In this document: positions 25,974 through 57,992 of the stretch, one piece after another
Layout of the letters: the number at the start of each line of letters is the position of its first letter
How positions within the stretch are numbered: the first letter of the stretch is position 1
Origin: Kineosporia babensis
Lineage (GTDB): Bacteria; Actinomycetota; Actinomycetes; Actinomycetales; Kineosporiaceae
Length of the DNA stretch: 64,000 nucleotides
Reading direction: 5' to 3'
Assembly (NCBI RefSeq): GCF_021129305.1
Contig: NZ_JAJOMB010000005.1
Coordinates: forward strand, 186,001-250,000
The notes under the pieces: model-generated
Told to the model about the DNA's origin: nothing
What the model saw: only the letters and a program-made list of their open reading frames with translations
Database searches by the model: none
Position numbers and translations under genes: made by a program

Positions 25974-26048
25974 GGCCTGTTATCACGACGGCCAACCATG
26001 ATCGGGGAGACAAAGCACGCTATATCGTCGCTTTGTCTTCCCGATCAT
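25974..26048. repeat. Palindromic intergenic repeat, copy 1
   Basis: ATGATCGGGGAGACAAAGC (25998-26016) and GCTTTGTCTTCCCGATCAT (26030-26048) pair over 19 bp with one G-T position, around a 13-nt loop. The motif GGCCTGTTATC lies upstream at 25974-25984. A second copy with the same stem core and the same flanking motif lies at 57923-57992. It sits between yaaA and the decarboxylase gene, ending 21 nt before the latter's start. Confidence 0.85.
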
Positions 26049-26069
26049 CACTCGGGGCAGACTGAGCGC

Positions 26070-27536
26070 GTGACCCCAGAAGAGTTCCGCACTGCAGGCC
26101 ATCAGCTGATCGACTGGATCGCCGACTACCGCACCGGGCTCCCCGACCGTCCGGTGCAATCCACGGTCAAGCCCGGGGACGTGACTGGCGCCCTCCCCGC
26201 CACTCCCCCGACCGCGCCCGAGGATCTGGCCGCGGTGATGCGCGACCTGGACGAGATCATCGTGCCGGGCCTGATGCAGGTTCAGCACCCGCGCCACACC
26301 GGCTGGTTCCCCTCCAACGCATCGCTCGCCTCCGTGCTCGGCGACATCGCCTCCTCCGGCATCGGCGCCCTAGGTATCTCCTGGCAGTCCGCCCCGGCGC
26401 TGACCGAACTGGAGGAGGTGGTCTGCGACTGGATGCGTCAGCTGACCGGCCTGTCCGAGGGCTGGCGCGGCGTCATTCAGGACACTGCTTCGACCGGCTG
26501 CCTGGTGGCCCTGCTCGCCGCCCGGGAGCGCGCGGCCGACTACGTCAGCGAGCGCGGCGGTCTACAGTCACTCGAAGCTCCCCTGACGGTCTACTCCTCC
26601 GAGCACGCACATTCCGCCACCCCAAAGGCCGCTCTGCTGGCGGGCTTCGGCCGCGACAACATCCGTAGCATCGCCACTGACCCCGCGACCCACGCGCTGG
26701 ACCCCGCGGCTCTGCGCGCGGCGATCGAGAAGGACGTCAATGAGGGACGTCGGCCCGCGGCGATCGTCGTAAGCGTGGGTACGACGGCAACCACCGCAGT
26801 GGACCCGCTGGCCGAGATCATGCAGATCGCCGCGGGCTACGGAATCTGGGTCCACATCGACGCCGCGATGGCCGGATCCGCCCTGCTGCTGCCCGAATAT
26901 CGCTGGCTGGTCGAGGGGATCGAGGGGTTCACGACGCCGGACGGGTTCACTGTGCCGCCCGCGGACTCGCTGGGCTGGAACCCGCACAAGTGGATGGGCA
27001 CGATCCTGGACACGTCGCTGCTGTACGTGCGTGAGCCGGAGCGGCTGATCCGGGTGATGTCGACCAACCCCAGCTTCCTGCGTAACTCCGGGGCGGTCGT
27101 AGCCACCGAGTACCGCGACTGGGGCATTCCCCTGGGCCGGCGGTTCCGCGCCCTGAAGCTGTGGTTCCACCTGCGCCTGGACGGCGTCGAGGCGATCCGC
27201 GAGCGCCTACGCCGAGACCTCGCCAACGCCCAGCGCCTGGCCCGCCTGGTGACCGCCGAGCCGGACTGGACTGTCGTAGCCCCGGTTTCGCTGCAGACGG
27301 TGTGCATCCGCCACACGCCCTCCGGCCCGAACGGCGAAACCCTGGACGGCGAGGCGCTCGAGCAGCACACCCTGGCCTGGGCGGACGCGCTGAATCGCAG
27401 CGGCGTGGGCACGGTGACCCCGGCGAAGCTGGCCGGGCAGTGGATGGTCCGGATCTCGATCGGCGTGGAGAGCACGGAATGGTCTGACGTGGAAGCGGTC
27501 TGGACCGCGGCGAAGGAGCTGGCCGCTCAGGCCTGA
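26070..27536 (+). CDS. PLP-dependent group II decarboxylase (aromatic-L-amino-acid type)
   Basis: A 488-aa fold-type I PLP enzyme of the DOPA/tryptophan/tyrosine decarboxylase family, expected to make an amine from an amino acid. Hallmarks are the N-terminal helical arm (EEFRTAGHQLIDWIADY), QHPRHTGWFPSNAS in the substrate channel, TASTGCLVALLAARE, the PLP-ring Asp in WVHIDAAMAGSA near residue 263, and the Schiff-base Lys in NPHKWMGT near residue 307. The GTG at 26070 gives the normal N-terminus; the Shine-Dalgarno is weak. The specific substrate cannot be told from sequence. It stands alone; its stop overlaps the next minus-strand gene by 10 bp. Confidence 0.9.
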   Translation: MTPEEFRTAGHQLIDWIADYRTGLPDRPVQSTVKPGDVTGALPATPPTAPEDLAAVMRDLDEIIVPGLMQVQHPRHTGWFPSNASLASVLGDIASSGIGALGISWQSAPALTELEEVVCDWMRQLTGLSEGWRGVIQDTASTGCLVALLAARERAADYVSERGGLQSLEAPLTVYSSEHAHSATPKAALLAGFGRDNIRSIATDPATHALDPAALRAAIEKDVNEGRRPAAIVVSVGTTATTAVDPLAEIMQIAAGYGIWVHIDAAMAGSALLLPEYRWLVEGIEGFTTPDGFTVPPADSLGWNPHKWMGTILDTSLLYVREPERLIRVMSTNPSFLRNSGAVVATEYRDWGIPLGRRFRALKLWFHLRLDGVEAIRERLRRDLANAQRLARLVTAEPDWTVVAPVSLQTVCIRHTPSGPNGETLDGEALEQHTLAWADALNRSGVGTVTPAKLAGQWMVRISIGVESTEWSDVEAVWTAAKELAAQA

Positions 27537-27979
27537 ACGCTCAGAGGGTGGCGCCGCAGAAAAGCGGCGCCCACCCTCGCATCACGTTCGATCCGGAAGG
27601 CCGCCGCCGCGTAGAGCACTGCCCACAGCGCCACGAGAAGCTTGAGCCAGATGGAGACATCCATGAACATCCAGGCCGCCTGCCCCAGCACGAGACCCAC
27701 GATCACCAGCCCAACGGGACGTCGGGCCACCAGGGCCTTGGCCAGAGTCTGCAGCACCACCAGCTCTCGGCCGGGCAACTCCTCGTCGGCCTTGGCCTGC
27801 AGCAGACGCACCGAGACCCGGTGATCGCCCGGGGCAAAGTCGGTCAACCCCGCAGCGCGCCGCCGCTCAGCCTCCTCGATGTTGCTGCGGTAGAGCCGGC
27901 CACCAGCCACCAGAGCCAGCACGACACCGAGAATCTGGACCACGACCAGCACCGGTACCCAGAAGTCCGGATCGCCCAT
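27527..27979 (-). CDS. Hypothetical membrane protein, 150 aa
   Basis: Three hydrophobic helices are visible: one at the N-terminus (FWVPVLVVVQILGVVLALVAGG) and two near the C-terminus (VGLVIVGLVLGQAAWMF and LLVALWAVLYAAAAF). A charged middle loop of about 60 residues contains RAAGLTDFAPGDHRVSV, probably cytosolic. I know no named family. It is convergent with the decarboxylase (10-bp overlap). A long plus-strand frame over the same bases is an artefact. Confidence 0.6.
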   Translation of the reverse strand: MGDPDFWVPVLVVVQILGVVLALVAGGRLYRSNIEEAERRRAAGLTDFAPGDHRVSVRLLQAKADEELPGRELVVLQTLAKALVARRPVGLVIVGLVLGQAAWMFMDVSIWLKLLVALWAVLYAAAAFRIERDARVGAAFLRRHPLSVQA

Positions 27980-28051
27980 GCCGGAACTTCACCGTGCAGC
28001 TGGGCCTCCCGCAACCGCAGGCCCTCGCACTCCGGCGAGACGCCAACCGGA

Positions 28052-28082
28052 CCGCGGGTGAGCGAGATCCACTCACCCGCGG
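28052..28082 (-). terminator. Terminator hairpin after metZ
   Basis: CCGCGGGTGAG (28052-28062) and CTCACCCGCGG (28072-28082) form a perfect 11-bp stem with a 9-nt loop, 11 nt past the metZ stop codon. Confidence 0.75.
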
Positions 28083-28092
28083 CCGGCCCGGC

Positions 28093-29274
28093 TCAGCTCA
28101 GCGCGTTGTCCAGGTCTTCCAGCAGGTCCTGCACGTCTTCCAGACCGACCGAGATGCGCACCGTGCCGTCGCTGATCCCCGCAGCCGCCCGGGCCTCGGG
28201 GGTGAGGCGGCGGTGGGTGGTGGTGGCCGGGTGGGTCACCATCGACTTGGCGTCACCCAGGTTGTTCGAGATGTCGACGACGCGCAGCCGGTCCAGGAAG
28301 CTGAACGCCTTCTCCTTGCCACCCAGCTCGAAGGTGACCACCGTGCCGCCCGCGCTCATCTGCGACTTGGCCAGCTCGTACTGGGGGTGGCTGGGCAGGT
28401 GCGGGTACTTCACCGCGCCGACCCGGGCGTCGGCCTCGAGGAACTCGGCGATCCGCAGCGCGCCGGCGCACTGGTGGTCGACCCGCAGCCGCAGCGTCTC
28501 CAGGCCCTTCAGCAGCACCCAGGCGTTGAACGGGCTGAGCGAGGGCCCGGTGTGGCGCATCAGGTTCTGCACCTTCTCGTTGATGTACTCCTCCGGGCCG
28601 AGGATGGCCCCACCGAGCACCCGGCCCTGGCCGTCGATGTGCTTGGTGGCGGAGTAGACCACGATGTCGGCGCCCAGCTCGAGCGGCTTCTGCAGCAGCG
28701 GGGTAGCGAAGACGTTGTCCACCACGACCTGGGCCCCGGCCGCGTGCGCCAGCTCGCTGACCGCGCGGATGTCGACCAGCTCCTGGGCCGGGTTGGACGG
28801 CGACTCGAAGAAGACGGCCTGGGTGGGCTGGCTGAGCGCCTGTTCCCACTGGGCCAGGTCGGGGCCGTCGACGAACACCGTCTCCACGCCCCAGCGCGGC
28901 AGGATCTCGTCGAGGATGACGAAGCAGGAGCCGAACAGCGCCTTGGAGGCGACGATCCGGTCACCGGCGCCGAGCAGCGCGGCCAGGGCGTTGAAGACCG
29001 CGGACATCCCGGTGGCGGTGGCGAAGGCGGCCGGGGCGCCCTCGATCAGCCGCAACCGCTCCTCGAACATGGACACGGTGGGGTTGCCGTAGCGCGAGTA
29101 GACGAAGTGCTCCAGCTCGCCCTTGAACGCCGACTCGGCCTCGCCGGCCGAGCCGTAGGTGTACCCCTGGGTGAGGAACAGCCCCTCGGACATCTCCGCG
29201 AAGTTCGACCGGACGGTGCCGCCCCGCACGCTCAGGGTGTCGGGTCGGCGGGGGTCTGGGGTGTCGCTGCTCAT
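28093..29274 (-). CDS. metZ: O-succinylhomoserine sulfhydrylase
   Basis: Makes homocysteine from an activated homoserine and sulfide in methionine synthesis. The 393-aa protein is a Cys/Met-metabolism PLP enzyme: YSRYGNPTVSMFEERL near the N-terminus, ATGMSAVFNALAALL, VVVDNVFATPLLQKPLELGAD with the cofactor Asp, and the PLP Lys in YSATKHIDGQGRVLGG near residue 211. Overall likeness to MetZ of mycobacteria and streptomycetes is good, but MetB/MetY specificity cannot be excluded. It begins at an ATG behind GAGGAACG and is the last gene of a DUF1737-rhodanese-metZ operon; the rhodanese may supply or handle sulfur for it. Confidence 0.88.
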   Translation of the reverse strand: MSSDTPDPRRPDTLSVRGGTVRSNFAEMSEGLFLTQGYTYGSAGEAESAFKGELEHFVYSRYGNPTVSMFEERLRLIEGAPAAFATATGMSAVFNALAALLGAGDRIVASKALFGSCFVILDEILPRWGVETVFVDGPDLAQWEQALSQPTQAVFFESPSNPAQELVDIRAVSELAHAAGAQVVVDNVFATPLLQKPLELGADIVVYSATKHIDGQGRVLGGAILGPEEYINEKVQNLMRHTGPSLSPFNAWVLLKGLETLRLRVDHQCAGALRIAEFLEADARVGAVKYPHLPSHPQYELAKSQMSAGGTVVTFELGGKEKAFSFLDRLRVVDISNNLGDAKSMVTHPATTTHRRLTPEARAAAGISDGTVRISVGLEDVQDLLEDLDNALS

Positions 29275-29374
29275 CTGCTCGTTCCTCGAATGGTGGGACG
29301 GGGGTGGGGCGGTTCGGGCACGGCGAACCGGCGGGGTGGCCGGCCGGAGAACCAGGCGGCCGCCCCGGCCGGAC

Positions 29375-29791
29375 TCAGCCCTGTTTCCAGGGCAGGCCGC
29401 GGACCTTCCAGCCGGCCTTGCGGCCACGGTGGCTCTGCTCGTCGGGCGGGCCCTCGAAGCCCTCCAGAATGTTGAACGCAGCGGTGTACCCGGCTGCGGT
29501 GGCGGCCTCGGCCGCGGCGACCGAGCGCACCCCGGAACGGCACAGGAACACCACCGGCGCGGACTTGTCGGCCGAGACGGCACCGACCTCGTCCAGGAAG
29601 GCGGGGTTGCGGGCGCCGTCGGGGAACGAGGTCCACTCGATCAGGGCCACGTCCTTGGCCAGCGCGGTCAGGTCGGGCACCCCGACGTAGGACCACTCGG
29701 CCCGGGTGCGCACGTCCACCAGGACGGCGCCCGGGTTGGACTGCACCAGTTCCCAGGCCTGTTCGGGGGAAAGATCTCCGGCGTACGGCAC
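29375..29791 (-). CDS. Rhodanese-domain protein (sulfurtransferase)
   Basis: A single-domain rhodanese of 138 aa. It has VLVDVRTRAEWSYVGVPD at the N-terminus and the active-site loop CRSGVRS with Cys near residue 84, followed by EAATAAGYTAAFNILEGFEG. Rhodaneses carry sulfane sulfur as a cysteine persulfide. The C-terminal HRGRKAGWKVRGLPWKQG matches a common actinobacterial and proteobacterial form found beside methionine genes. It is 3 bp from the DUF1737 gene and 100 bp upstream of metZ, so a sulfur-delivery role in homocysteine formation is a reasonable inference. Confidence 0.88.
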   Translation of the reverse strand: MPYAGDLSPEQAWELVQSNPGAVLVDVRTRAEWSYVGVPDLTALAKDVALIEWTSFPDGARNPAFLDEVGAVSADKSAPVVFLCRSGVRSVAAAEAATAAGYTAAFNILEGFEGPPDEQSHRGRKAGWKVRGLPWKQG

Positions 29792-29794
29792 GGC

Positions 29795-30013
29795 TCAGGC
29801 CTCCTGGATGTGCGGGCGGTTCGGGCTGGGACGACCGGGTGGTTCGGGCAGCACTACGGCCTGCCCGGCGATCACCCGCTCGCCGTCGAAGGTCAGGGTG
29901 GGCGGACCGTGCAGCACGTAGCCCTCGGCGAGGGCGGCGCTGACCCGCTCGCAGAAACTGCGGTCGTCGGGGCCGGTGAGCAGCTTGTAACGCAACGGCT
30001 CGGTCTCTGCCAT
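29795..30013 (-). CDS. DUF1737 small protein
   Basis: A 72-aa protein with the DUF1737 pattern: RYKLLTGPDDRSFCERVSAA, ALAEGYVLHGPPTLTFDGE and IAGQAVVLP. The function of the family is unknown. It is the first gene of the putative operon with the rhodanese and metZ genes, with 3 bp to the next start, so it may be linked with sulfur or methionine metabolism. The Pro-rich C-terminal tail is probably disordered. Confidence 0.75.
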   Translation of the reverse strand: MAETEPLRYKLLTGPDDRSFCERVSAALAEGYVLHGPPTLTFDGERVIAGQAVVLPEPPGRPSPNRPHIQEA

Positions 30014-30130
30014 GAACCAGTTCTACCTCAGCGCCCCGACAGTCTTAAGCGCAGGACCCGTCCGCTTGCCTGATCACCCGTAACTTTCACCACGATCAGC
30101 CGTTCGGGGGCAGCGCTGGATCACGCTGGA

Positions 30131-30754
30131 TCACGCCGGGGTGCTCCGGTTGACCCCGGCGACCTCGATCCCACCGTCGGCCCACATCCGTACCGTGGTG
30201 ATCCCGGTCGGGTCGATCCGCAGGCGCCAGAACGCGGCGGGACCGGCGTCCAGGGCGCTCGCGACGGCTGCGCGGATCAGACCGGTATGGGTGACGACGA
30301 CGACGGACTTTCCCGGGTACGACGAGCGCAACCGCCGCCAGCAGGCGTCCGTACGTTCTGCGAGATCCTGAACCGACTCGCCACCCGGAGGCCGGGCCGA
30401 CGGGGAGTGCCGCCACTGCGCGTACTCCTTCGGCCAGCGCTCGGCGATCTCCCGGTAGGACAGGCCGTCCCACTCCCCCAGCCGGAGCTCGGCCAGTTCC
30501 GGATCGGCCACCGGCTCGCAGCCCACCGCCGCGCGCAGCGCCCAGGCGGTCTGCCAGGTGCGCAGCAAGGGCGAGGTGAGCAGCGCGTCCGCCGGGCCCA
30601 GCACCCGAGCCAGAGCCTCGGCCTCGGCCACGCCCTGCTCGCTCAGCGCCGGGCCGTGCCGGTCGCCGCCGCTGGGCACCGAGCCGGTGTGCGCGGTGCT
30701 GGCGTGCCGGACCAGGTGCAGCGTCAACGGCTGACCGAGGTCCGGCGCCGCCAC
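30131..30754 (-). CDS. Histidine phosphatase family protein (phosphoglycerate-mutase-like)
   Basis: A 207-aa cytosolic phosphatase with the branch-1 signature LHLVRHASTAHTG (nucleophilic His), LLTSPLLRTWQTA with catalytic Arg, LAELRLGEWDGLSYREI with the acid residue, and VVVVTHTGLIRA with the second His. The substrate may be alpha-ribazole phosphate (CobC), a sugar phosphate or another phosphoester; sequence alone does not decide. In mycobacteria the equivalent position next to the zinc-ribbon and Nif3-like genes holds an RNase HI-CobC fusion, so here the phosphatase appears to stand without the RNase H part. It begins 3 bp after the zinc-ribbon gene. Confidence 0.85.
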   Translation of the reverse strand: MAAPDLGQPLTLHLVRHASTAHTGSVPSGGDRHGPALSEQGVAEAEALARVLGPADALLTSPLLRTWQTAWALRAAVGCEPVADPELAELRLGEWDGLSYREIAERWPKEYAQWRHSPSARPPGGESVQDLAERTDACWRRLRSSYPGKSVVVVTHTGLIRAAVASALDAGPAAFWRLRIDPTGITTVRMWADGGIEVAGVNRSTPA

Positions 30755-30757
30755 CGT

Positions 30758-31501
30758 CTAGAGGCCGGACTCGGCCGTGCGCACCAGGATCCGGCTGCAC
30801 TCCTCGCAGCGGAGCACCTGGTTCTCGGCCGCGGCGCGGATCCGGTTCAGGTCGTTCGGCGGCAGGGTGAGCTGGCAGCCCTCGCAGCGCCGCTGGTACA
30901 GCCGGGCCGCGCCGACCCCGTTGCTGTTCTCGCGGATGCGCTCGTACAGCGCCAGGAGCTCCTTCGGGATGCCCCCGGCCGCGGTCTCGCGGTCGCGCTT
31001 CTCGCCCTCGGCCTCACCGCTCAGCGTCTCGAGCTGCTTGTCGCGGGCCGCGGCCGCCTCGGCGATCTCGGCGCTGACCGCCTCGCGCCGGGTGGTGGCC
31101 TCCTCGACCGAGGCCTGGGCCGCCTCCTGGCGCTCCATCACCTCGAGCTCGGCGTCCTCCAGCACGCTCTGCCGGTTGGCCAGGTTCTCCAGCTCGTGCT
31201 GGATCGCCTGCAGGTCCTTCGCGCTGCCCTGACCGGCGTCGAGCCGGGCCTGGTTACGAGCCGCCCGCTGGCGCACCTGCTCCACGTCGGCCTCGGCCTT
31301 GGTGAGCTCGCGAGCCGCGTCGGTGAGCGCCGTGCGGGCCACCACCAGCTCGTCGTCGATGCCCTGGCGCTTCTTCTCCAGCTCGGCGATCTTCGCGAGC
31401 TCGGGCAGCGAGCGCTGCCGGTGCGCGATCTGAGTGAGCCGGATGTCGTGCGCCTGCACGTCCAGCAGCCGCCACTGATCCTGAGCCGCCGCCGTTACCA
31501 C
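30758..31501 (-). CDS. Coiled-coil C4 zinc-ribbon protein (DUF164/CdsZ-like)
   Basis: A 247-aa protein made of a long N-terminal antiparallel coiled coil (about residues 10-180, heptads rich in Ala/Glu/Arg) and a C-terminal zinc ribbon with CEGC and CEEC pairs (YQRRCEGCQLTLPP...VLRCEECSRIL). Proteins of this type in actinobacteria bind zinc and are thought to act as nucleic-acid or complex adaptors. AGGAGG abuts the ATG at 31510, so the GTG at 31501, nine bases further, is the better spaced start; both give nearly the same protein. It lies between the Nif3-like and phosphatase genes, a conserved trio. Confidence 0.85.
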   Translation of the reverse strand: MVTAAAQDQWRLLDVQAHDIRLTQIAHRQRSLPELAKIAELEKKRQGIDDELVVARTALTDAARELTKAEADVEQVRQRAARNQARLDAGQGSAKDLQAIQHELENLANRQSVLEDAELEVMERQEAAQASVEEATTRREAVSAEIAEAAAARDKQLETLSGEAEGEKRDRETAAGGIPKELLALYERIRENSNGVGAARLYQRRCEGCQLTLPPNDLNRIRAAAENQVLRCEECSRILVRTAESGL

Positions 31502-31590
31502 AGCAACCATCCTCCTAGCTAAAGTCCCCCGCGGGAGCATCAGCTTAGAGGGCGGGGCGGGCCTGCGATCACCACCGGGCAGGGCAGGTC

Positions 31591-32769
31591 TCAGCGAACC
31601 ATGCCGCCTGGGCTGGGCACCCGGAACACCCACGGGTCGGTGCTGCGGGCCGAGACCAGCACCTCGACCGCCCGGCCGGAATCAGCCAGAGCGCCCTCCA
31701 GCCGGTTGGAAACCCCGTTCAGCCAAGGCCATTCGCTGGCCCAGTGAGCCACGTCGACCAGGTAGGGCGCGCCGTCGCCGGCCGCTTCGCGGGCCTCGGA
31801 GGCGGGATGGTGCCGCAGGTCGGCAGTGACGTAGACATCGGCCTGGGAGGCCCGCACCGCTGCGAACAACGAATCGCCGGCACCGCCGCAGACCGCCACC
31901 CGGGAGACCTCGGCCGTGGGATCACCGGCCACCCGCACCCCCTGAGACGTGCTGGGCAGGGCCTCGGCGACCAGCATGGCGAACTCGCGCAGGCTGGTGG
32001 GCTGCTCCAGGGTGCCGACCCGGCCGATGCCCCGGGGGCCGGACCAGGTGGACAGCTCGTAAAGGTCGATCGCGGGTTCTTCGTAGGGGTGCGCGGTGCG
32101 CAACGCGGCCAGCGCCTCGGACCGGCGCTTGCGGGGCAGGACCATCTCGATCCGCCGCTCCTCGACCACCTCACGCTCGCCCGGCGTACCGATCGCCGGG
32201 GTGGCCGAAGAACCCGGCACGAACGTTCCCGTGCCCACCGCCGTCCAGGCGCAGCGCGCGTACTCGCCGATCTCCCCGGCGCCGGCCGCCGACAGCGCGT
32301 CCAGCACCTTCTCCACCGCGGTCTCCGGGACGAAGGTGACCAGCTTGTCCACCGGATCGGCGGGGTCGGCCGACAGCGGCACCAGGTCGGTCAGGCCGAG
32401 CACCCGGGCCAGCGCGTCGGAGACCCCGGGGGCAGCCGCATCGGCGTTGGTGTGAGCGGTGTAGAGCGCGCAGCCGCCGCGGATCAACTGGTGGATCACC
32501 TTGCCCTTGGGCGTGGTGATGGGCACGCCGTGGACACCGCGCAGCAGCAGGGGGTGGTGGGTGATCAGCAGATCGGCCCGCCAGGTGAGCGCCTCTTCGA
32601 CGACCGCCGGCGCCGGGTCGATCGCCAGCAGGATCCGGCGGACCTGCGCGTCCGGGTCACCGCAGACCAGCCCCACGGCGTCCCAGTCGCGCGCCCAGGC
32701 CGGGTCGTACATCCGTTCCAGCACGGCGATGACGTCGGCGAGCGAAGGTGAAGCGGCTTCGGTGGTCAC
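31591..32769 (-). CDS. Nif3-like dinuclear metal centre hexameric protein
   Basis: A 392-aa member of the GTP cyclohydrolase I type 2/NIF3 family. Metal-binding signatures are visible: WDAVGLVCGDPDAQV near the N-terminus, LLITHHPLLLRG, LYTAHTNADAA, and near the C-terminus VYVTADLRHHPASEA and VDVAHWASEWPWL. An inserted middle domain (about residues 130-240) with YEEPAIDLYEL is the PII-like/CutA-like insert of the longer form. Biochemical function is unsettled across the family. The GTG start has TAGAGT 6 nt upstream and no Shine-Dalgarno, so the gene is probably leaderless. Confidence 0.88.
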   Translation of the reverse strand: MTTEAASPSLADVIAVLERMYDPAWARDWDAVGLVCGDPDAQVRRILLAIDPAPAVVEEALTWRADLLITHHPLLLRGVHGVPITTPKGKVIHQLIRGGCALYTAHTNADAAAPGVSDALARVLGLTDLVPLSADPADPVDKLVTFVPETAVEKVLDALSAAGAGEIGEYARCAWTAVGTGTFVPGSSATPAIGTPGEREVVEERRIEMVLPRKRRSEALAALRTAHPYEEPAIDLYELSTWSGPRGIGRVGTLEQPTSLREFAMLVAEALPSTSQGVRVAGDPTAEVSRVAVCGGAGDSLFAAVRASQADVYVTADLRHHPASEAREAAGDGAPYLVDVAHWASEWPWLNGVSNRLEGALADSGRAVEVLVSARSTDPWVFRVPSPGGMVR

Positions 32770-32775
32770 TCTCAG

Positions 32776-32781
32776 ACTCTA
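32776..32781 (-). promoter_or_regulatory. Candidate -10 box of the Nif3-like gene
   Basis: On the minus strand TAGAGT ends 6 nt before the GTG start, with no ribosome-binding site between them. Confidence 0.4.
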
Positions 32782-32892
32782 TCGGGCACAGCGCGTTCAT
32801 GTGTCATGACTTGGCGTGGTCTTCGACAAGCGTCCAAAGACACTGTTCAGGGGTTCTGGTGGGGCCGGCGCAGACCGGCCCCACCAGAGGAT

Positions 32893-36190: not shown

Positions 36191-36220
36191 CGTTTCTCAC
36201 ACCTCTCTTCGGACAAAGAA

Positions 36221-36249
36221 CGGGCCGGGCTGCGCAACAGCCCGGCCCG
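36221..36249 (-). terminator. Hairpin between binding-protein gene and GH51 gene
   Basis: CGGGCCGGGCT (36221-36231) and AGCCCGGCCCG (36239-36249) form a perfect 11-bp stem with a 7-nt loop; on the coding strand TTCTTTGTCC follows. It may be a partial terminator that lets the transporter genes be expressed above the hydrolase genes. Confidence 0.6.
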
Positions 36250-36269
36250 CTCTCGCGTGGAACTCGGTC

Positions 36270-38636: not shown

Positions 38637-38637
38637 C

Positions 38638-47438: not shown

Positions 47439-47459
47439 TGCTCACTCCTTCGTGAGACG

Positions 47460-47474: not shown

Positions 47475-47509
47475 GCGCCCAACGATCCGGACGTCCTCAA
47501 AAACTGTTC

Positions 47510-47526: not shown

Positions 47527-47574
47527 TTCGTCGACGGATTCACTGTCCGGCAGGGACAGACCCGGACGCAAGGG

Positions 47575-47603: not shown

Positions 47604-47768
47604 TCGAGAACTTCCGACAAATGCGGCATCTCTTCTTCCCGGAGGAGCGGCCGATCCGAACGACAGTTTCCTGCTCTACCGAACTCTCCCAGCGCATCGG
47701 GGCGCTGTTCCGCCCCGCTGCGTCCGTTGCGCCGCGGCCGCCGCGGCCGGTACCCGATGGAGATCACC

Positions 47769-50047: not shown

Positions 50048-50931
50048 GCACCGTGACCGCCCCGGCACCCACCGGGACCCGGGCGCCCGAGCCGCGCACC
50101 GACGTCCGTAAGTTCCTGCAGCTGAACTGGATCGGTGGCCTGGGCGGGCTGTTCTGGCTGGTCGTGGTGATCCTGCCGGTCTACTGGATCGTCCTGACCA
50201 GCGTGAAGACCCGGGCCAACTACTACACCACCAACCCGCTCGCCCCACCCGGTGAGATCAGCTTCGAGAACTACAGTTTCGTGATGGAGTCGGGCTTCCC
50301 CCGGTACTTCGCGAACACCGCGATCGTCACCCTGGGCGCGGTGGTGCCGGCCGTGCTGATCTCGTTCATGGCCGCGTTCGCGATCGTCCGGGCCGGTGAC
50401 GGGCGGTTCCTGCGCTCGGTGAACCTGCTGTTCCTGGCCGGTCTGGCGATCCCGCTGCAGGCGGTGATCATCCCGGTGTACCTGATCATCATCCGGCTGC
50501 AGATGTACGACACCCTGCTGGCGATCATCCTGCCCTCGATCGCCTTCGCCATCCCGCTGACCGTGCTGATCCTGTCCAACTTCATCCGTGACGTGCCCAA
50601 GGAACTGTTCGAGTCGATGCGCCTGGACGGGGCCAGCGAGTGGCGTACCGCCTGGTCGCTGGCCTTTCCGCTGACCCGGCCGGCGCTGGTCACGGTCGGT
50701 ATCTACAACGCGCTGACGATCTGGAACGGCTTCCTGCTGCCGCTGGTGCTGACCACCGATCCGAACCAGCGCACCCTGCCCCTGGCGCTGTGGTCCTTCC
50801 AGGGGCAGTACGGCGTGAACGTGCCGGCCGTGGCCGCCGCGGTCGTGCTGACCACCCTGCCGATCCTCACGCTCTACGTGATCGGCCGGCGACAGCTGCT
50901 GAGCGGTCTGACCGCCGGCTTCGGCCGCTGA
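50044..50931 (+). CDS. Sugar ABC transporter permease, MalG type (locus 2)
   Basis: A 295-aa membrane permease with six helices, the first being GLFWLVVVILPVYWIVLTSV. The EAA loop is degenerate (FESMRLDGASEWRTAWSLAFP, with ESM in place of EAA), but the following Gly is kept, as in many MalG-like proteins. It is followed 38 bp later by the LacI gene on the same strand. As in locus 1, no ATPase gene is present. Confidence 0.9.
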   Translation: MSTVTAPAPTGTRAPEPRTDVRKFLQLNWIGGLGGLFWLVVVILPVYWIVLTSVKTRANYYTTNPLAPPGEISFENYSFVMESGFPRYFANTAIVTLGAVVPAVLISFMAAFAIVRAGDGRFLRSVNLLFLAGLAIPLQAVIIPVYLIIIRLQMYDTLLAIILPSIAFAIPLTVLILSNFIRDVPKELFESMRLDGASEWRTAWSLAFPLTRPALVTVGIYNALTIWNGFLLPLVLTTDPNQRTLPLALWSFQGQYGVNVPAVAAAVVLTTLPILTLYVIGRRQLLSGLTAGFGR

Positions 50932-50969
50932 CCTGCTATGGGCCTGGAGCCCTGGTGAAGGAGGCTCAC

Positions 50970-51974
50970 ATGAGCTCCAGGCCCGCACGGGCAACGTTGG
51001 CGACCATCGCCGAGGCCGCGGGAGTCTCGATCGCCACCGTCTCCAAGGTGGTGAACGGGCGCGACGACGTCTCCCCCGGCACCCGCGCGATGGTCGAGGA
51101 ACTGCTGCGCCAGCACTACTACACCGGCCGGGGCGGCAGCCGGCAGACCACCATCGAGGTGGTCTTCGCCGGGCCCTTGGCGGCCTACAGCAACGAGGTC
51201 ATGGAGGGCGTGCTGCAGGCCGCCGCCGAGCCCGGCGTGTCGGTGATGCTGAGCAAGGGCCGGGGCGCCTCGACCGCCACGGCCTGGGCCTTGGCGGTGG
51301 CCAAGGCCGGGCGCTGCGCGGTGATCAGCGTCAGCAACGAGATGACCCCCGAGGAGTCCACCGCCCTGGCCCGGGCCAACGTCCCGCTGGTCGTGGTGGA
51401 CCCGCTAACCCCGGCCGGCGCCGACGTCACCAGTGTCGGCTCCACCAACTACGCCGGCGGGACCACCGCCGCCGAGCACCTGCTCTCCCTGGGGCACACC
51501 CGCCTGGCCTACCTGGGCGGCGATGCCGAGGCGGGCTGCAATCAGGCGCGCTGGCAAGGTTTTCGCGCCACCCTGGAGGCTGCCGGTTACCCCGTGGCCC
51601 CGAAGCTGGCCCAGCACCTGACCTTCCGCTACGCCGCCGGGCTGAACGGCGGCGGCGCCCTGCTCGACTCCCCCAACCCGCCCACCGCGGTCTTCGCCGG
51701 CAGCGACGAGATCGCCGTGGGCCTGATCGAGGCCTGCCGCCGCCGCGGCCTGCGGGTGCCCGAGGACGTGAGCGTGATCGGCTTCGACGACACCCAGCTG
51801 GCCGAGTTCTGTTCGCCCCCGCTGACCGTGGTGCGCCAGCCGCTGCGGGAGATGGGGCGGGTGGCCGTGCGCACCGCGCTGCAACTGGCGGCCGGGGCCT
51901 CGGTGGACTCGCACCACGTGGAGCTGTCCACCAGCCTGGTGGTCCGCGCCTCGACCGCCCCACCCCGGCGCTGA
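50970..51974 (+). CDS. LacI-family transcriptional regulator (locus 2)
   Basis: A 334-aa repressor with an N-terminal HTH (TLATIAEAAGVSIATVSKVVNGRDDVSPGTRAMV) and a sugar-binding-protein-like sensor domain ending VSVIGFDDTQLAEFCSPPLTVVRQP. The hinge region (YYTGRGGSRQTTIEVVF) lacks the usual PNxxAR motif, so DNA contacts of the hinge helix may differ. GAAGGAGG is well placed before the ATG. It is the last gene of the operon it probably controls; candidate operators lie in the 47.46-47.62 kb region. Confidence 0.9.
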   Translation: MSSRPARATLATIAEAAGVSIATVSKVVNGRDDVSPGTRAMVEELLRQHYYTGRGGSRQTTIEVVFAGPLAAYSNEVMEGVLQAAAEPGVSVMLSKGRGASTATAWALAVAKAGRCAVISVSNEMTPEESTALARANVPLVVVDPLTPAGADVTSVGSTNYAGGTTAAEHLLSLGHTRLAYLGGDAEAGCNQARWQGFRATLEAAGYPVAPKLAQHLTFRYAAGLNGGGALLDSPNPPTAVFAGSDEIAVGLIEACRRRGLRVPEDVSVIGFDDTQLAEFCSPPLTVVRQPLREMGRVAVRTALQLAAGASVDSHHVELSTSLVVRASTAPPRR

Positions 51975-52060
51975 TCGTCTACTCGCCGGTCTCTGCACTC
52001 CTACTGCAACGCCCGCTGCAGTTTCGCCCGATCAGGCACGAAAACCCGTTCCGCCTGACG

Positions 52061-52066
52061 TAATCT
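52061..52066 (+). promoter_or_regulatory. Candidate -10 box of the pRiA4b ORF-3-like gene
   Basis: TAATCT ends 7 nt before the GTG start at 52074 with no ribosome-binding site between, fitting a leaderless transcript. Confidence 0.5.
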
Positions 52067-52073
52067 CCCGCAA

Positions 52074-53108
52074 GTGCAGACGACCCGCCTGAAAGTGACA
52101 CTCCGCGACGTCGAACCGAGAGTTCTGCGGGTGCTCGACGTCCCGGCCGACAGCACGCTGGGCGAGCTACACGACCTGCTCCAGATCGGGGTCGGCTGGC
52201 TGAGTCTGGAGCCGTACCAGTTCATCTCGGGGCCGGTCACCTACCTGCCCGGCGCCGTCGAGGACGTGCTCACCGACCTGGGGCGCAGCTTCGGCTACCT
52301 CTACGATCCGCAGTCCCGCTGGGCGCACGACGTGCTGGTGCTCGGGCCCGGTGGCGATCGGGTGGGCTGCGTCTACGGCGAGGGGGTCTGCCCGCCGGAC
52401 AGCACCGGCGGCCCGCGGGAGTACGCGGCCCGGCTGCGCGAGCTGCCCGAGAGCATGCGCGAGATGTTCTGGGCCCCGCATTCGCCGGAGTTCGATCAGG
52501 AGCTCACCGATCTGCGGGTGCGCCAAATGGCCGGGGTGGTGCCGGAATCCGTGCAGCAGCTGCTCCGGCTGGCCGACGACGCTCCGGAACTGGGTTCCGG
52601 CAGCCACCTTCCGCTCGAGATCGTGCGCAGCATGCACGATCTGCGCCCACGCTGGCAGCATTTCACCGGGATGCCCCCGCTGTCCGTGCTGCACGGCATC
52701 CTGCGCAGCTGCGGGCTGCTGGTGGCCGGGGCCGGCCGGGTGCGCGACGAGTTGTTCATCGTGCGCAAGCTCCGCTCCTGGTTCGCTCCCGGAACCTTCA
52801 CCGCCAGCGTGGCCGGGCTGGGGGTGGGGGCCCTGGCCGCCCGGGGCGCGCTCGACGAGGAGACGCTGGTCGGCATCGTGCTCAGCGAGACCGACCGCGC
52901 GTACCCGGCCGGGCCGCAGGAGATCCGCAACGCCCTGATGCACCTGCTGCCGGCGCTGACCGGTCTGGACCTGGCCGAGCGCACCGGTGGGGCCTGGCAG
53001 CCCGGCCCGTCCGCCCGGACCCTGCTTCCACAGGCCACCGCGCTGTCGGTCTACGCATCCGGCCCGCGCGAGGGCTCCGGGGCACCGGAACAGCAGATGC
53101 CGGTCTGA
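52074..53108 (+). CDS. Plasmid pRiA4b ORF-3-like protein with long C-terminal extension
   Basis: A 344-aa protein. Residues 1-125 match the pRiA4b ORF-3 family pattern: LKVTLRDVEPRVLRVLDVPADSTLGELHDLLQIGVGWLS, YDPQSRWAHDVLVL and CPPDSTGGPREYAARL. The family's function is unknown. About 200 further residues form a helical region (VPESVQQLLRLADDAPELG..., PRWQHFTGMPPLSVLHGILRSCGLL) that I cannot assign. A polar tail closes the protein. It stands alone after the LacI gene with its own candidate -10 box and ends before tRNA-Val. Confidence 0.75.
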   Translation: MQTTRLKVTLRDVEPRVLRVLDVPADSTLGELHDLLQIGVGWLSLEPYQFISGPVTYLPGAVEDVLTDLGRSFGYLYDPQSRWAHDVLVLGPGGDRVGCVYGEGVCPPDSTGGPREYAARLRELPESMREMFWAPHSPEFDQELTDLRVRQMAGVVPESVQQLLRLADDAPELGSGSHLPLEIVRSMHDLRPRWQHFTGMPPLSVLHGILRSCGLLVAGAGRVRDELFIVRKLRSWFAPGTFTASVAGLGVGALAARGALDEETLVGIVLSETDRAYPAGPQEIRNALMHLLPALTGLDLAERTGGAWQPGPSARTLLPQATALSVYASGPREGSGAPEQQMPV

Positions 53109-53237
53109 ACGAACCGCTACGAAAACCCGCCCACTACCGCACCTGCCGGCACCTACGGGCGGTGCCCACGGCGTCCGCGGTTGAAAAGAACCTCGCGTGC
53201 GCCACCTGACGCATCATGCAGCTCTCCAGGGAGAAAG

Positions 53238-53310
53238 TGGGCCCGGCCGGTCTCGAACCGACGACACCCGCGGTGTAAACGCGGTGCTCTACCAACTGAG
53301 CTACAGGCCC
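53238..53310 (-). tRNA. tRNA-Val (anticodon TAC)
   Basis: On the minus strand GGGCCTG pairs with CGGGCCC as the acceptor stem (one G-U), a D arm GCTC...GAGC is present, the anticodon loop TTTACAC carries TAC between CCGCG/CGCGG stems, and the T arm is GTCGG-TTCGAGA-CCGGC. A is the discriminator; CCA is not encoded. It reads GUA (and by wobble GUG) valine codons. Confidence 0.95.
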
Positions 53311-53345
53311 CGGCTCCGGACCGGCAAGCGGTCCGGAGCGACGTT

Positions 53346-53804
53346 CTACAAAGCGGCGATGGCCTCGCGGTAGCCGTCCAGCGACCGGGCCTCGCCCATG
53401 CCGTTGACGATGCTCCAGCGCAGCACGCCGTCCTTGTCGATCAGGAAGGTACCGCGAACCGAGCTGCCGGTGGTCTCGTTGAAGACCCCGTAGGCCTGCG
53501 CCACCGCCCCGTGCGGCCAGAAGTCGGACAGCAGCGGGAACGGGTACTTCTCGGCATCGGCCCAGGTCCGCAGGGCGAACATGGGGTCGCAGGAGATCGC
53601 CAGGACCTGTACCCCGCCGTCCTCGAAGGCCGCCAGATTGTCCCGGATCTCACACAGCTCACCGGTGCAGATCCCGGAGAAGGCGAACGGGTAGAACACC
53701 AGCGCGACGTTCTTCTCGCCCTGGAAGGCCGACAGTTCGACCACCTCGCCGTGCTCGCTCTTCAGAGCGAAGCCGGGAGCCGGCTGACCGATCTGGAGTG
53801 ACAT
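53346..53804 (-). CDS. AhpE-like peroxiredoxin
   Basis: A 152-aa thiol peroxidase that reduces hydroperoxides. The peroxidatic Cys lies near residue 46 in YPFAFSGICTGELCEIRD, which matches the one-Cys AhpE subgroup of actinobacteria; a second Cys sits five residues on (residue 51). Other conserved parts are IGQPAPGFALKSEHGE and GTFLIDKDGVLRW. The ATG at 53804 gives the normal N-terminus. Gene order (peroxiredoxin, DUF3052, then divergent aceE) is the same as in mycobacteria, which supports the assignment. Confidence 0.88.
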   Translation of the reverse strand: MSLQIGQPAPGFALKSEHGEVVELSAFQGEKNVALVFYPFAFSGICTGELCEIRDNLAAFEDGGVQVLAISCDPMFALRTWADAEKYPFPLLSDFWPHGAVAQAYGVFNETTGSSVRGTFLIDKDGVLRWSIVNGMGEARSLDGYREAIAAL

Positions 53805-53891
53805 CTGCGCCTGTTTCCTCTCGCCCGGGCCCATGACCGTTCCGCACGCCGGATCATGATCCGGCGTGCGGAACCCAGTCTGTCAGGAACC

Positions 53892-54320
53892 TCAGCGGCG
53901 GCCGGCCTTCGGGGTGGCCAGTCTCGTCCCGGTCCAGTCCCGGCACACGCTGATCGTGCTGGTCGCGTGCAGCCCGGCGGTCGGGGCCGATTCCTCGATC
54001 TCGCTGTGCTCGACGTGGCCTTCCCGGCCCGCCTTCGGCGTCAGCAGCCAGATGATCCCGCCCTCGGCCAGGTTCGTCAGCCCAGAGATGAGCGCGTCAA
54101 CGAGATCGCCGTCGTCGTCTCGCCACCAGAAGAGGACTGCGTCGGCAACCTCCTGCGCGTCCTCATCGGCCAGTTCGTTGCCCGTCAGCGTCTCGATTGC
54201 GAGCCGCAGCTCGTCGTCCACGTCGTCGTCGTACCCGAACTCCTGTACGAACTGACCGGGCTTGAGTCCAAGCCGGCCGGCCATGGACTGCTCAGCCGCG
54301 GGCTCCGCGGTCGCGCCCAC
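53892..54320 (-). CDS. DUF3052 family protein
   Basis: A 142-aa soluble acidic protein of an actinobacteria-specific family: LGLKPGQFVQEFGYDDDVDDELR, DAVLFWWRDDDGDLVDALI, GGIIWLLTPKAGREGHVEHSEI and STISVCRDWTGTRLATPK. The function is unknown. The best start is the GTG at 54320 with GGAGGAGG 8 nt upstream; the first conserved residues begin at an ATG 12 codons later. It lies upstream of the peroxiredoxin gene on the same strand and divergent from aceE, an arrangement kept across actinobacteria. Confidence 0.85.
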   Translation of the reverse strand: MGATAEPAAEQSMAGRLGLKPGQFVQEFGYDDDVDDELRLAIETLTGNELADEDAQEVADAVLFWWRDDDGDLVDALISGLTNLAEGGIIWLLTPKAGREGHVEHSEIEESAPTAGLHATSTISVCRDWTGTRLATPKAGRR

Positions 54321-54891
54321 CTCACTGACCTCCTCCGCTGCCAACGCTCCCGCGCGGCGGCACTGGCAGCCCCGTAGGGCCGCTCGTCTTCCCGAACGGA
54401 TCGTCCGACCCGCTCGCCCACCACTTCGGTGGTCCAGCGATGATGCAACCATCACCAGGCTGGTCAGGCTAGTGGACTCCATCCCCTCGGTGCCGCGCAA
54501 CCGCCCCGCCACCTCGCACGTCGTGTTTTTGCCCGAACGATCGACGGCCGGTGCACAGGCGAGCGGCCGACACAGGGTGAGCATCCCGCCCCGGCACTTC
54601 CTCCCGCACATGGTTTTCCGGATCGGGCTGCACGCCCGACATGCCCGGGTAACCACCGCGACACGCCGCCGACACGCCCGGGCCCGGTGATCAGGACCCG
54701 CCCCGCCGTGCCCACCCCGATCCCGAAGGGGCACACTGGAGGCTGGAGGGCAAGGCCGCCACGGACGCCGTGAACGACGGGGTACCGGTGACGTCACCGC
54801 CGCCCGTCAGCCAAGATAGGGCCCGGACCGGTCGCGATCCGGCGGGTTCGGCATGGTTTCACATCGTTGTCCTAAATCCAGGAGGGACGTC
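54321..54891. other. Divergent intergenic region DUF3052 / aceE
   Basis: 571 bp with no credible gene; it must contain the promoters of aceE and of the DUF3052 gene. The most notable feature is the 14-bp palindrome at 54786-54799 (listed separately). AAGATAGGG at about 54813-54821 could be a -10 region. Long frames through it are low-complexity and unsupported. Confidence 0.6.
54786..54799. promoter_or_regulatory. Perfect palindrome upstream of aceE
   Basis: CGGTGACGTCACCG is a perfect 14-bp palindrome about 92 bp before the aceE start and about 15-20 bp upstream of an AAGATAGGG that could serve as a -10 region. It looks like a dimeric regulator site; no regulator can be named from sequence. 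Confidence 0.4.
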
Positions 54892-57633
54892 GTGGTCGGA
54901 CGAGAATCATCAGGCCCGATCCTGAACGGGCTGCCGAGCCGGCTGCCCGACATCGATCCTGAGGAGACCGCTGAGTGGATCGCGTCCCTGGACGCGGCCA
55001 TCGACGGTCAGGGCCGTCAGCGGGCCCGCTACCTGATGCAGTCCCTGCTGCAGCGCGCCCGCGAGCGCGGTGTCGGTGTGCCGAGTCTCACGGCCACCGA
55101 CTACGTCAACACCATCCCGCCGGAGGCCGAGCCCTGGTTCCCGGGTGACGAAGAGGCCGAGCGCACCGCCCGCCGGTGGGTCCGCTGGAACGCCGCGGTG
55201 ATGGTGCACCGCGCCCAGCGCCCGGACATCGGCGTCGGCGGTCACATCTCCTCCTACGCCTCCTCGGCCTCGCTCTACGAGGTCGGCTTCAACCACTTCT
55301 TCCGGGGCAAGGATCACCCGGGTGGCGGTGACCAGGTCTTCTTCCAGGGCCACGCCTCCCCCGGCGTGTACGCCCGGGCGTTCCTCGAGGGCCGGCTGTC
55401 CGCCGACCAGCTCGACGGCTTCCGCCAGGAGCGCTCGCACCCGGCCGGCGGTCTGTCCTCGTACCCGCACCCGCGGCTGATGCCGGATTTCTGGGAGTTC
55501 CCGACCGTCTCGATGGGCCTGGGCCCGATGAACGCGGTCTACCAGGCCTCGTTCAACAAGTACCTGCACAACCGGGGCATCAAGGACACCTCCCAGCAGC
55601 ACGTCTGGGCCTTCCTCGGCGACGGCGAGATGGACGAGCCGGAGAGCCGCGGTTTCCTCCAGGTCGCCGCCCAGGAAGAGCTGGACAACCTGACCTTCGT
55701 GGTGAACTGCAACCTGCAGCGCCTGGACGGCCCGGTGCGTGGCAACGGCAAGATCATCCAGGAGCTGGAGGCGCAGTTCCGCGGCGCCGGCTGGAACGTG
55801 ATCAAGGTGGTCTGGGGCCGCGAGTGGGACCCGCTGCTGGCCGCCGACCGCGACCACGCCCTGGTCAACCTGATGAACATCACGCCCGACGGCGACTACC
55901 AGACCTTCCGGGCCGAGGACGGCGCGTACATCCGCGAGCACTTCTTCGGCCGTGACCCGCGCACCCTCAAGCTGGTCGAGAAGCTCTCGGACGACGACAT
56001 CTGGTGGAACCTCAAGCGCGGTGGGCACGACTACCGCAAGGTCTACGCGGCCTACCGGGCGGCGGTCGAGCACAACGGCCAGCCCACGGTGATCCTGGCC
56101 AAGACGATCAAGGGCTACGGCCTGGGCACGCACTTCGCCGGCCGTAACGCCACCCACCAGATGAAGAAGCTCACGCTGGACGACCTCAAGGCGTTCCGCG
56201 ACGGCCTGCGCATCCCGATCAGCGACGCCCAGCTGGAGGCGGACAAGTACCTGCCGCCGTACTTCCACCCGGGCGAGAACGACGAGACGCTGCAGTACCT
56301 GAAGGACCGCCGGCGCAAGCTCGGCGGGGCCGTGCCCTCGCGCCGGCACAGCGCGGGCTCGCTGAAGCTCCCCGACGACAAGGCCTACGCCGGCGCCAAC
56401 AAGGGCTCGGGCAAGCAGCAGGTCGCCACCACCATGGCGTTCGTCCGGATCCTGCGGGACCTGATGCGGGACAAGGACTTCGGCCCCCGGGTGGTGCCGA
56501 TCATCCCGGACGAGGCGCGCACCTTCGGGATGGACTCGTTCTTCCCGACCGCCAAGATCTACAACCCGCACGGCCAGCAGTACACCTCGGTCGACCGTGA
56601 GCTGATGCTCGCCTACACCGAGTCGGTCTCCGGGCAGATCCTGCACGTGGGCATCAACGAGGCCGGTTCGGTCGGGGCGTTCCAGGCGGCCGGCACCTCG
56701 TACGCCACGCACGGCGAGCCGATGGTCCCGGTCTACGTCTTCTACTCGATGTTCGGCTTCCAGCGCACCGGTGACAGCCTGTGGGCCGCGGCCGACCAGA
56801 TGTCCCGGGGCTTCCTGATCGGCGCCACCGCCGGGCGGACCACGCTGACCGGCGAGGGCCTGCAGCACGCCGACGGGCACTCCCCGCTGCTGGCCTCGAC
56901 CAACCCGGCGGCGGTGATCTACGACCCGGCCTACGGGTACGAGATCGGGCACATCATGAAGGACGGCCTGCGGCGGATGTACGGCGAGTCGCCGGAGGAC
57001 ATCTTCTACTACCTGACCGTCTACAACGAGCCGATCGTGCAGCCCCCGGCTCCCGAGAACGTCGATGTCGAGGGCATTCTCAAGGGCATCTACCAGCTGC
57101 GGCCGGCCGGTCAGGCGTCCGGCCCGAAGGCCCAGATCCTGGCCTCGGGGGTCTCGGTGCCGTGGGCCCTGGAGGCGCAGACCCTGCTGGCCAACGACTG
57201 GGGCGTGGCCGCCGACGTGTGGAGCGTGACCAGCTGGACCGAGCTGCGCCGCGACGCCCTGGCGGCGGACAACCACAGCTTCCTGAACCCCTCGGAGCCG
57301 GCCCGCAAGCCGTTCGTCACGCAGAAGCTCGAGGGGGCCGCCGGTCCGGTGGTCGCGGTCACCGACTACATGCGGGCGGTACCGGACCAGATCCGGCAGT
57401 GGGTGCCGCAGGAGTTCGTCTCCCTCGGCGCCGACGGCTTCGGCATCTCCGACACCCGCCCGGCGGCCCGCCGCTACTTCGGCATCGACAGCCCGTCGGT
57501 CGTGGTGCGGGTGCTGCAGCTGCTGGCCGCCCGCGGTGAGATCGCCGCGGACATCCCGCAGAAGGCCGTGGACAAGTACGACCTGCTGAACGTCCGGGCC
57601 GGCACCACCGGCACGGCGGGCGGCGACGCGTAG
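54892..57633 (+). CDS. aceE: Pyruvate dehydrogenase E1 component (homodimeric)
   Basis: Decarboxylates pyruvate with thiamine diphosphate and passes the acetyl unit to the lipoyl E2 component, giving acetyl-CoA for the citrate cycle and for fatty-acid synthesis. The 913-aa length fits the homodimeric alpha2 type. The TPP-binding motif runs from [12 protein letters not shown] to [15 protein letters not shown]; other hallmarks are [41 protein letters not shown] and [12 protein letters not shown]-like [21 protein letters not shown]-type segments. The GTG at 54892 follows GGAGGG at 5 nt; upstream residues are not conserved-looking. It stands as a single gene, ending in a clear hairpin, just before the fatty-acid genes. 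Confidence 0.95.
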
Positions 57634-57646
57634 TCCGTTCGTCAGG

Positions 57647-57689
57647 CGAGGGGCTGCTGGGGAGACTTCCCGGCGGCCCCTCGGCTTTT
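57647..57689 (+). terminator. aceE terminator
   Basis: CGAGGGGC (57647-57654) and GCCCCTCG (57676-57683) pair, with GG...CC pairing inside the loop possible, followed by GCTTTTG. Lies 14 nt after the aceE stop codon. Confidence 0.7.
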
Positions 57690-57922
57690 GCCTGCCTGAT
57701 TGAGGACGCTCGCCCGCCCCACGCTCCCACCGGGCCCTCCCGCTCGGGGCCGGCTTGGCCAACGCAACCCGGACTCACACCGGGCCAGTTCCTCCAACCC
57801 AACCCACGCTCACACAACCCCTGTCCTGACGGGCTTCTCCAACCACAAGCCACGCTCCCCATCAGCCCCTCCGCTCGGGGCCAGCTCTTCTACTCGCTCT
57901 CCTTCCACCCACCCGCTAGCAA

Positions 57923-57992
57923 GGCCTGTTATCGCTCGCCGTGTTGATCGGGAAGACAAAACGACGCTATGACGTGCTTTGTCTTCCCGATC
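57923..57992. repeat. Palindromic intergenic repeat, copy 2
   Basis: GATCGGGAAGACAAA (57946-57960) and TTTGTCTTCCCGATC (57978-57992) are perfect reverse complements over 15 bp around a 17-nt loop. GGCCTGTTATC precedes at 57923-57933, as it does in the copy at 25974-26048; the loop segment ACGCTAT is shared too. Here it sits between convergent genes. Confidence 0.85.

Follow-up and report, generated by a model that had tools for sequence, protein, structure and literature searches.

A 64,000-nucleotide stretch of the Kineosporia babensis genome (contig NZ_JAJOMB010000005.1, positions 186,001 to 250,000; hereafter the window) contains two copies of a 47-bp palindrome, each preceded by the same short flank. 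This raises the question of what the palindrome and the flank are, and why they occur together. The copies are located at 26000–26046 and 57946–57992, and the common flank, GGCCTGTTATC, begins 26 bp ahead of the left arm in copy 1 and 23 bp ahead in copy 2, as stated in the original prediction. The latter also held that the two were not chance hairpins and suggested a dispersed repeat family, a bidirectional terminator or the binding site of a chromosome-structuring protein. Two distinct elements were found. The palindrome is a short repeat of the mobile type, recently spread in one species. The motif GCCTGTTATC in the flank is a separate terminus-polar site, whose polarity is centred on dif. 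Probably, a mobile palindrome has met here a terminus system that employs a Xer-like protein at GCCTGTTATC, most likely a replication fork trap.

Polar sites around dif

The window's own genome (G000) is a 9.4-Mb draft in 89 contigs; it was compared with the genomes of five congeners (G001–G005). L numbers below denote individual loci or stretches. The motif GCCTGTTATC occurs 30 times in G000 and 18–29 times in each of the congeners; seven genomes from other genera of the family contain 0–5 matches. A reversed-pattern control gave a total of one match across the six genus genomes.

The genome of G005 is available as one 8.07-Mb contig. All 14 minus-strand matches to GCCTGTTATC lie at 4.59–6.40 Mb, and all 15 plus-strand matches lie elsewhere (matches up to 6.4352 Mb were listed in order; the later ones are plus according to the totals). 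Since dnaA is located at 2.416 Mb, the strand switch lies across the chromosome from the origin. A dif-like sequence at 6,420,971 resembles the dif proposed for Frankia alni (excerpt of PMC3025954). An origin-centred site was also considered and was dropped because of the positions of dnaA (2.416 Mb) and dif (6.421 Mb). Seven of the 29 matches carry GCCTGTTATCCCC and correspond to 23S rRNA genes; 23S rRNA carries GGGGATAACAGGC. These seven preclude the view that all 29 matches are functional. The other 22 are polar without exception (10 minus, 12 plus).

The same was true of the genus as a whole. Twenty-four contigs of the six genomes carry at least two sites, 111 sites in total including those in rRNA genes, and no violation of polarity was observed: 18 contigs display a single orientation and six display one minus-to-plus switch. 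In the four genomes examined in this regard (G000, G003, G004, and G005), dif is located between the innermost opposed sites. Polar sites that are present on both chromosome arms and switch at the terminus are the arrangement of a fork trap. Most sites are intergenic (24 of the 28 non-rRNA sites examined in G000; 14 of 19 in G005), and those observed in coding regions are antisense to their genes. A role of GCCTGTTATC as a promoter −10 element was rejected, as it does not fit the strict polarity and the intergenic sites distant from gene starts. FtsK orienting polar sequences (KOPS) are short, frequent, and polar towards dif; GCCTGTTATC is polar yet rare.

A Xer-like gene near dif

All six genus genomes encode a protein of ~330 amino acids, which is 80–89% identical to that of G000. 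In each of them, the gene resides in the only contig with a strand switch; it is 1.9–14 kb from dif in the four genomes in which dif was located. In G000 and G002–G005, one site ends 9 nt ahead of the start codon of this gene, another lies further upstream, and one is found past the stop codon. Three sites occupy matching places in G001, the middle one 8 nt ahead of the start. In position, this matches the terminator genes of fork traps, which lie close to the terminus and have a site in the promoter.

Weak matches to Phage_integrase were obtained with Pfam for six of seven members (best E 1.6e-4, with every displayed score below the curated cut-off), and weak matches to tyrosine recombinases with NCBIfam for two of five proteins. 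The Pfam scans of the Xer-like proteins revealed no match to Tus (PF05472) or RTP (PF02334) and assign them to neither the Tus-Ter nor the RTP-Ter system. A sequence search against solved structures with the Xer-like protein returned no match. The first AlphaFold model was poor (pLDDT 51), while the second, which used 11 sequences, reached a pLDDT of 81 and a pTM of 0.57. Foldseek comparison with the PDB gave 36 matches at E ≤ 0.001 (best E 3.1e-6), and the best 50 rows were all tyrosine recombinases (Cre, XerA, XerH, lambda Int, and others), with no Tus among them. The query TM scores were low, 0.26–0.39 across these 36 matches, which makes the placement of domains uncertain. The model nevertheless points to a tyrosine-recombinase fold with a core-binding and a catalytic domain.

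The catalytic tyrosine of these enzymes is expected ~30 residues past the HxxR box. As judged by eye, the 11 chains end 5–18 residues past the last arginine box, short of the position of this residue, and none has the catalytic tyrosine of an active recombinase. Four chains from another family possess tyrosines 2–5 residues past the last arginine box, which is too close for a nucleophile. An order-wide search identified matches at E ≤ 1e-5 in 20 of 248 genomes, with the six genus genomes clearly ahead of all others. A 35% homologue was found in one other genus of the family.

Polar sites in a second family

The four homologues from the other family (L243, L244, L246, and L249; two genera) carry GGTTCCGTTATC in the promoter. 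Its GTTATC begins 14–27 nt ahead of the start codon, and an inverted, sometimes slightly altered copy is present 161–170 nt ahead of the start. A polar array around dif was therefore predicted beforehand for this family.

Genome G081 contains GGTTCCGTTATC twice, both on the minus strand. The shorter pattern TTCCGTTATC was found seven times in 400 kb, namely three times on the minus strand (298,797–319,721) and then four times on the plus strand (319,864–353,743); the dif-like sequence is at 322,556, and the reversed control of TTCCGTTATC gave zero matches. Three copies of GGTTCCGTTATC, one minus and two plus, were detected in G019. The looser GGTNCYGTTATC, which was picked after viewing ten GTTATC matches in G019, three of which do not fit it, displays three minus copies (240,118–417,615) followed by four plus copies (417,758–433,846), with a dif-like sequence at 418,410. 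In both genomes, the promoter pair is the innermost opposed pair and the strand switch is 0.7–2.9 kb from dif. Both genera tested agree in outline with the predicted polar array. A recombinase-fold gene is tied to polar sites in two families.

The heptamer GGGGGAG, which resembles KOPS, is co-oriented with GCCTGTTATC around dif in G005 (94:3 in 380 kb vs. 10:0 for the motif). The count for CTCCCCC in the G000 draft is 50:0 on the motif strand across 25 loci, and 11:0 in the window. The ratio of GGGGGAG in G081 is 138:19, with a switch at the Xer-like gene. This heptamer is likely the FtsK-orienting sequence in these actinobacteria. It points to dif in G005 at 6.228–6.608 Mb (L215–L222, L191–L193, L223–L230), in C2 of G081 (L270–L289), and in C1 of G197 (L308–L327), where it switches sharply at the dif-like sequence.

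The palindrome family

A covariance model was built from 20 copies of the palindrome and used to score 150 of 2286 first-look candidates, so that decayed copies may be missed. At E ≤ 1, the model identifies 28 locations in G000, which excludes chance hairpins. Of these, 25 are counted as clear, full and intact copies, mostly intergenic; C14:189654 (a 38-bp relative), C1:145691 (27.8 bits), and C45:346826 (22 bits) were dropped. The length is 47 bp in 23 of the 25 copies, with L119 counted as 47; L035 has 48 and L107 has 46 bp. One further copy, on C19 (L047 2991–4409), is split by an insert of ~1.4 kb with a gene for a 367-amino-acid transposase-like protein with rve and HTH domains, which we take to be IS30. 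Four copies of a sister family, GATCGGGGCAACAAAGT, were also found in G000. The 38-bp perfect palindrome at C14:189654 (L111 2055–2092) has related arms, GATCGTGAAGACAAG, and is perhaps a deleted member of the 47-bp family.

The arms are near-invariant, and some changes are compensated on the opposite side. In the set of 20 copies, 93% of cells are paired, and 2 of 500 shuffles attained the observed covariation score. Changes on both sides affect 3 of 18 pairs, a number that 213 of 500 shuffles attained as well. The gene context was tabulated in 31 rows, which count the split copy twice and rely on genes called with a simple custom script. It is tandem in 20 rows, convergent in seven, and divergent in two; one row overlaps the end of an open reading frame and one is at a contig edge. 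The palindrome begins ≤ 50 nt past a predicted stop codon in 12 of these rows. Dispersed occurrence in many intergenic copies is the feature of repetitive extragenic palindromic (REP) elements and REPINs. Target-site duplication, a hallmark of miniature inverted-repeat transposable elements (MITEs), was not observed, as no direct repeat > 2 bp was present at 27 copies. A hairpin followed by a T-run, as in intrinsic terminators, was not seen either: TTTT follows only L044 among 27 copies (by eye).

Exact search revealed the palindrome in only one of the six genus genomes, the window's own, and the model search of the five congeners gave nothing above 26.5 bits. This 26.5-bit match, in G003, is a sister palindrome, GATCGGATGACAAAAGTGG...CCACTTTTGTCATCCGATC, also 47 bp long. 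The exact-arm pattern gave four unrelated matches, none actinobacterial by title, in a genome collection from which the own and near genomes may be excluded. Empty sites were identified in relatives. At L044, the palindrome is absent from the four relatives with a printed alignment (G001–G004), most cleanly in G003, where the flanks abut; G005 has 50 bases in its place and, according to the model, no palindrome. It is also absent at L043 from G001, G003, G004, and G005, which have printed alignments, and G002 displays a matching shorter spacing between BLAST pieces. The aceE spacer, too, is shorter in the four relatives compared, with a boundary that is not clean. The dispersed REP/MITE-like family of the original prediction is thus borne out by intact copies that are species-specific in the genomes searched and by empty sites in relatives. 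A separate palindrome family, with arms containing CGTGTGCATT, occurs up- or downstream of the same sites in G002 (L156, L159, L160) and G004 (L175). In addition, a 56-bp perfect palindrome lies ~59 bp downstream of a site at L171 (G004 C4).

Palindromes next to the polar sites

Sites near palindromes were scored with a profile made from 60 sites, all from the relatives. An exact GCCTGTTATC occurs near 9 of 30 palindromes: 7 of 26 in the first family, split copy included, and two of four in the sister family. The spacing is 10–15 bp, or 23 bp in L049, and the palindrome lies 3' of GCCTGTTATC, that is, on the origin-facing side, in all nine. When arms of at least 10 within 100 nt of a site were counted, G000 gave 8 of 29 downstream and 4 of 29 upstream (random windows, 12 of 400); the relatives gave 6 of 60 and 4 of 60. 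The side preference is clear in G000 only, since palindromes of the relatives flank the sites either way. At one shared locus (hisA by eye), both G000 and G003 have the site, each with the palindrome of its own species. Transcription arriving from the palindrome side is mixed among the composites.

The common flank is therefore not a part of the palindrome element, as had been supposed, being present at 9 of 30 palindromes and genus-wide; it agrees well with the suggested binding site of a chromosome-structuring protein. Palindrome and motif as one element were rejected as the general case, given the 21 palindromes without the exact motif. Oriented insertion was rejected as well, because the 2/3-nt asymmetry of the palindrome centre points either way relative to the motif (by eye).

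Proposed explanation and alternatives

We propose the following scheme. The palindrome would be mobilised by a transposase acting in trans. A Xer-like protein encoded near dif, presumably catalytically dead, would bind the non-palindromic sites, which point one way along each chromosome arm, and would control its own gene via the promoter site. By analogy with Tus-Ter and RTP-Ter, the bound sites would let replication forks enter the terminus but not leave it. Palindromes gather just beyond the likely footprint of the protein, on the side towards the origin, where insertion is probably either promoted or tolerated by bound sites.

A number of observations weigh against this scheme. Fork arrest at GCCTGTTATC, although the most likely function, is deduced from known systems. 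The G005 sites span ~2 Mb on each side of dif, beyond what an efficient trap needs. Most palindromes (21 of 30) have no exact GCCTGTTATC within 60 bp, and the weak site matches at L108 (7.7) and L033 (6.7) are on the usual and the opposite side, respectively. Assuming that forks moving outward are blocked, the palindromes would be located on the permissive face of the sites, which leaves a model of insertion at stalled forks unsupported. No transposase partner of the palindrome was identified, and no genome-wide search for transposases or REP-associated tyrosine transposases (RAYTs) was made. The promoter pair of G081 and G019 has its plus site on the minus side of dif, 0.7–2.7 kb off, so that dif lies beside and not inside the switch. 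A shorter, more distant homologue is located 31 kb from dif in G197, yet no GTTATC array was found there. Finally, CTCCCCC is only 2:1 in the 20-kb stretch of G000 adjoining dif (L195).

Several other explanations have to be weighed. The polar sites might guide segregation, with the Xer-like protein aiding FtsK/XerCD or organising the terminus domain, similar to KOPS or matS. Its relationship to Xer recombinases and the co-orientation of the sites with GGGGGAG, around dif in G005 and across 25 loci in G000, make this conceivable, but we regard it as unlikely: ~20–30 mostly intergenic sites per genome are few compared with the heptamer (10:0 vs. 94:3 in 380 kb), and the low copy number together with a site in the own promoter suits terminator proteins better. 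Moreover, matS is palindromic and not polar. A somewhat more doubtful option is that the palindromes serve to terminate transcription in both directions and have been selected at the ends of genes and next to sites, where they would shield the bound protein from RNA polymerase. Strong hairpins, some compensatory changes, the 12 of 31 rows soon after a stop codon, and the seven between convergent genes are in line with this. Copy 1, however, sits 23 nt ahead of a predicted start codon, the flanking genes diverge in two rows, the run of four T after L044 is the only one among 27 copies, and covariation is modest in view of the shuffles for pairs changed on both sides. Above all, the empty sites in relatives and the near-identical arms in unrelated places require copying of palindromes.

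We consider it improbable that site and palindrome travel as one composite that brings along a Ter-like site, with selection removing wrong orientations. The upstream flank shared by the palindrome copies w2 and L119 (score 16, with 1 of 200 shuffles as high; the sole pair of 36 at p ≤ 0.02) would agree with such a composite, as would the finding that 0 of 9 exact composites match a relative's site over the site itself, a comparison that covers 63 of 120 sites of the relatives. Yet most palindromes have no exact site, most sites have no palindrome, the spacing varies from 10 to 23 bp, and the arrangement is common to two different palindrome families. It is hardly credible that GCCTGTTATC is polar merely because genes are oriented along the leading strand or because of rRNA genes. 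The seven matches in 23S rRNA genes are indeed co-directional, and the coding-region sites seen are antisense to genes, but the remaining 22 are all polar, most sites are intergenic, the reversed-pattern controls are nearly empty, and the second family shows the same polarity with a different motif.

Comparison with known systems

The Tus-Ter system is known from Enterobacterales and a few other clades. As in that system, non-palindromic polar sites surround dif opposite the origin, and the gene near the terminus has a promoter site; the predicted tyrosine-recombinase fold, the site sequence, and the occurrence in Actinobacteria are different. Known Tus and RTP fork traps are restricted to four clades according to an excerpt of PMC6549158, and both proteins are autoregulated via a ter site in the promoter (excerpt of PMC10331603). 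RTP-Ter of Bacillus likewise combines polar terminus sites with autoregulation of RTP, but the excerpted text describes RTP as dimers on two half-sites (PMC10331603), unlike the ~330-amino-acid Xer-like chain reported here. The fold and the gene position near dif are shared with XerC/XerD-dif, and the site has GATAA in common with one dif arm (by eye). In contrast to XerC/XerD, the chain ends before the catalytic tyrosine and would bind ~20–30 separate single sites. KOPS and architecture-imparting sequences are also polar towards dif, but GCCTGTTATC is ~9 times rarer in the 380 kb compared, longer, mostly intergenic, and tied to one gene. The palindrome, in turn, is short, dispersed, intergenic, and lineage-specific like REPs, REPINs, and short MITEs. 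It differs from them in its near-fixed length of 47 bp, about 26 copies, the lack of a detectable target-site duplication, and the absence of a linked RAYT or transposase among the loci inspected here.

The reason for the existence of fork traps is debated, and the known ones are those of Tus and RTP. We see an even chance that the system described here is a third, independently evolved fork trap, in Actinobacteria, with a tyrosine-less Xer recombinase on polar GTTATC sites that occur singly around dif. It would comprise ~20–30 sites over half of the chromosome in one genus, with the bound sites serving as hot spots for palindromes. Among the matches listed, the open-licence literature contained no report of an actinobacterial fork trap or of this motif. 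If true, a third unrelated trap would show that controlled termination has been selected for convergently, and the question of why traps exist would then concern Actinobacteria as well. The system would also offer a simple, testable pair of protein and site, as well as an example of mobile palindromes that accumulate at terminus sites.

Features of the window

Both sites in the window are on the plus strand and are terminus-polar and Ter-like. The first GCCTGTTATC, at 25975–25984, has a profile score of 21.9 and is followed by the palindrome 15 bp downstream; the second, at 57924–57933, has a score of 20.2 and a distance of 12 bp. Palindrome copy 1 scores 68.9 bits and has two extra flanking pairs at 25998–26048. 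Its left arm is GATCGGGGAGACAAA, with one G-T wobble against the right arm, and its hairpin, in a 67-nt RNA fold, has −36 kcal/mol and a z of −7.2. Copy 2 (72.7 bits) has perfect 15-bp arms. A search for the arm 11-mers in the window with ≤ 1 mismatch gave 4 matches against 0.23 expected, a number reached by 0 of 100 shuffles.

Copy 1 lies between tandem genes, as anticipated, namely a yaaA-family gene on its 5' side (25070–25858, plus strand; PF03883, E 1.9e-39) and a gene for a pyridoxal phosphate (PLP)-dependent decarboxylase (26070–27536, plus strand; PF00282, E 3.5e-81), the predicted start of which is 23 nt past the palindrome. The neighbours of copy 2 are convergent: an aceE-like gene for pyruvate dehydrogenase E1 on its 5' side (54892–57633, plus strand; PF17831, E 7e-79) and a gene at 58071–58799 on the minus strand with no Pfam match at E ≤ 0.001. 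The Rfam scan gave no family match for either hairpin. The same database identified an RNase P RNA at 22572–22953 and a tRNA at 53238–53310, both on the minus strand.

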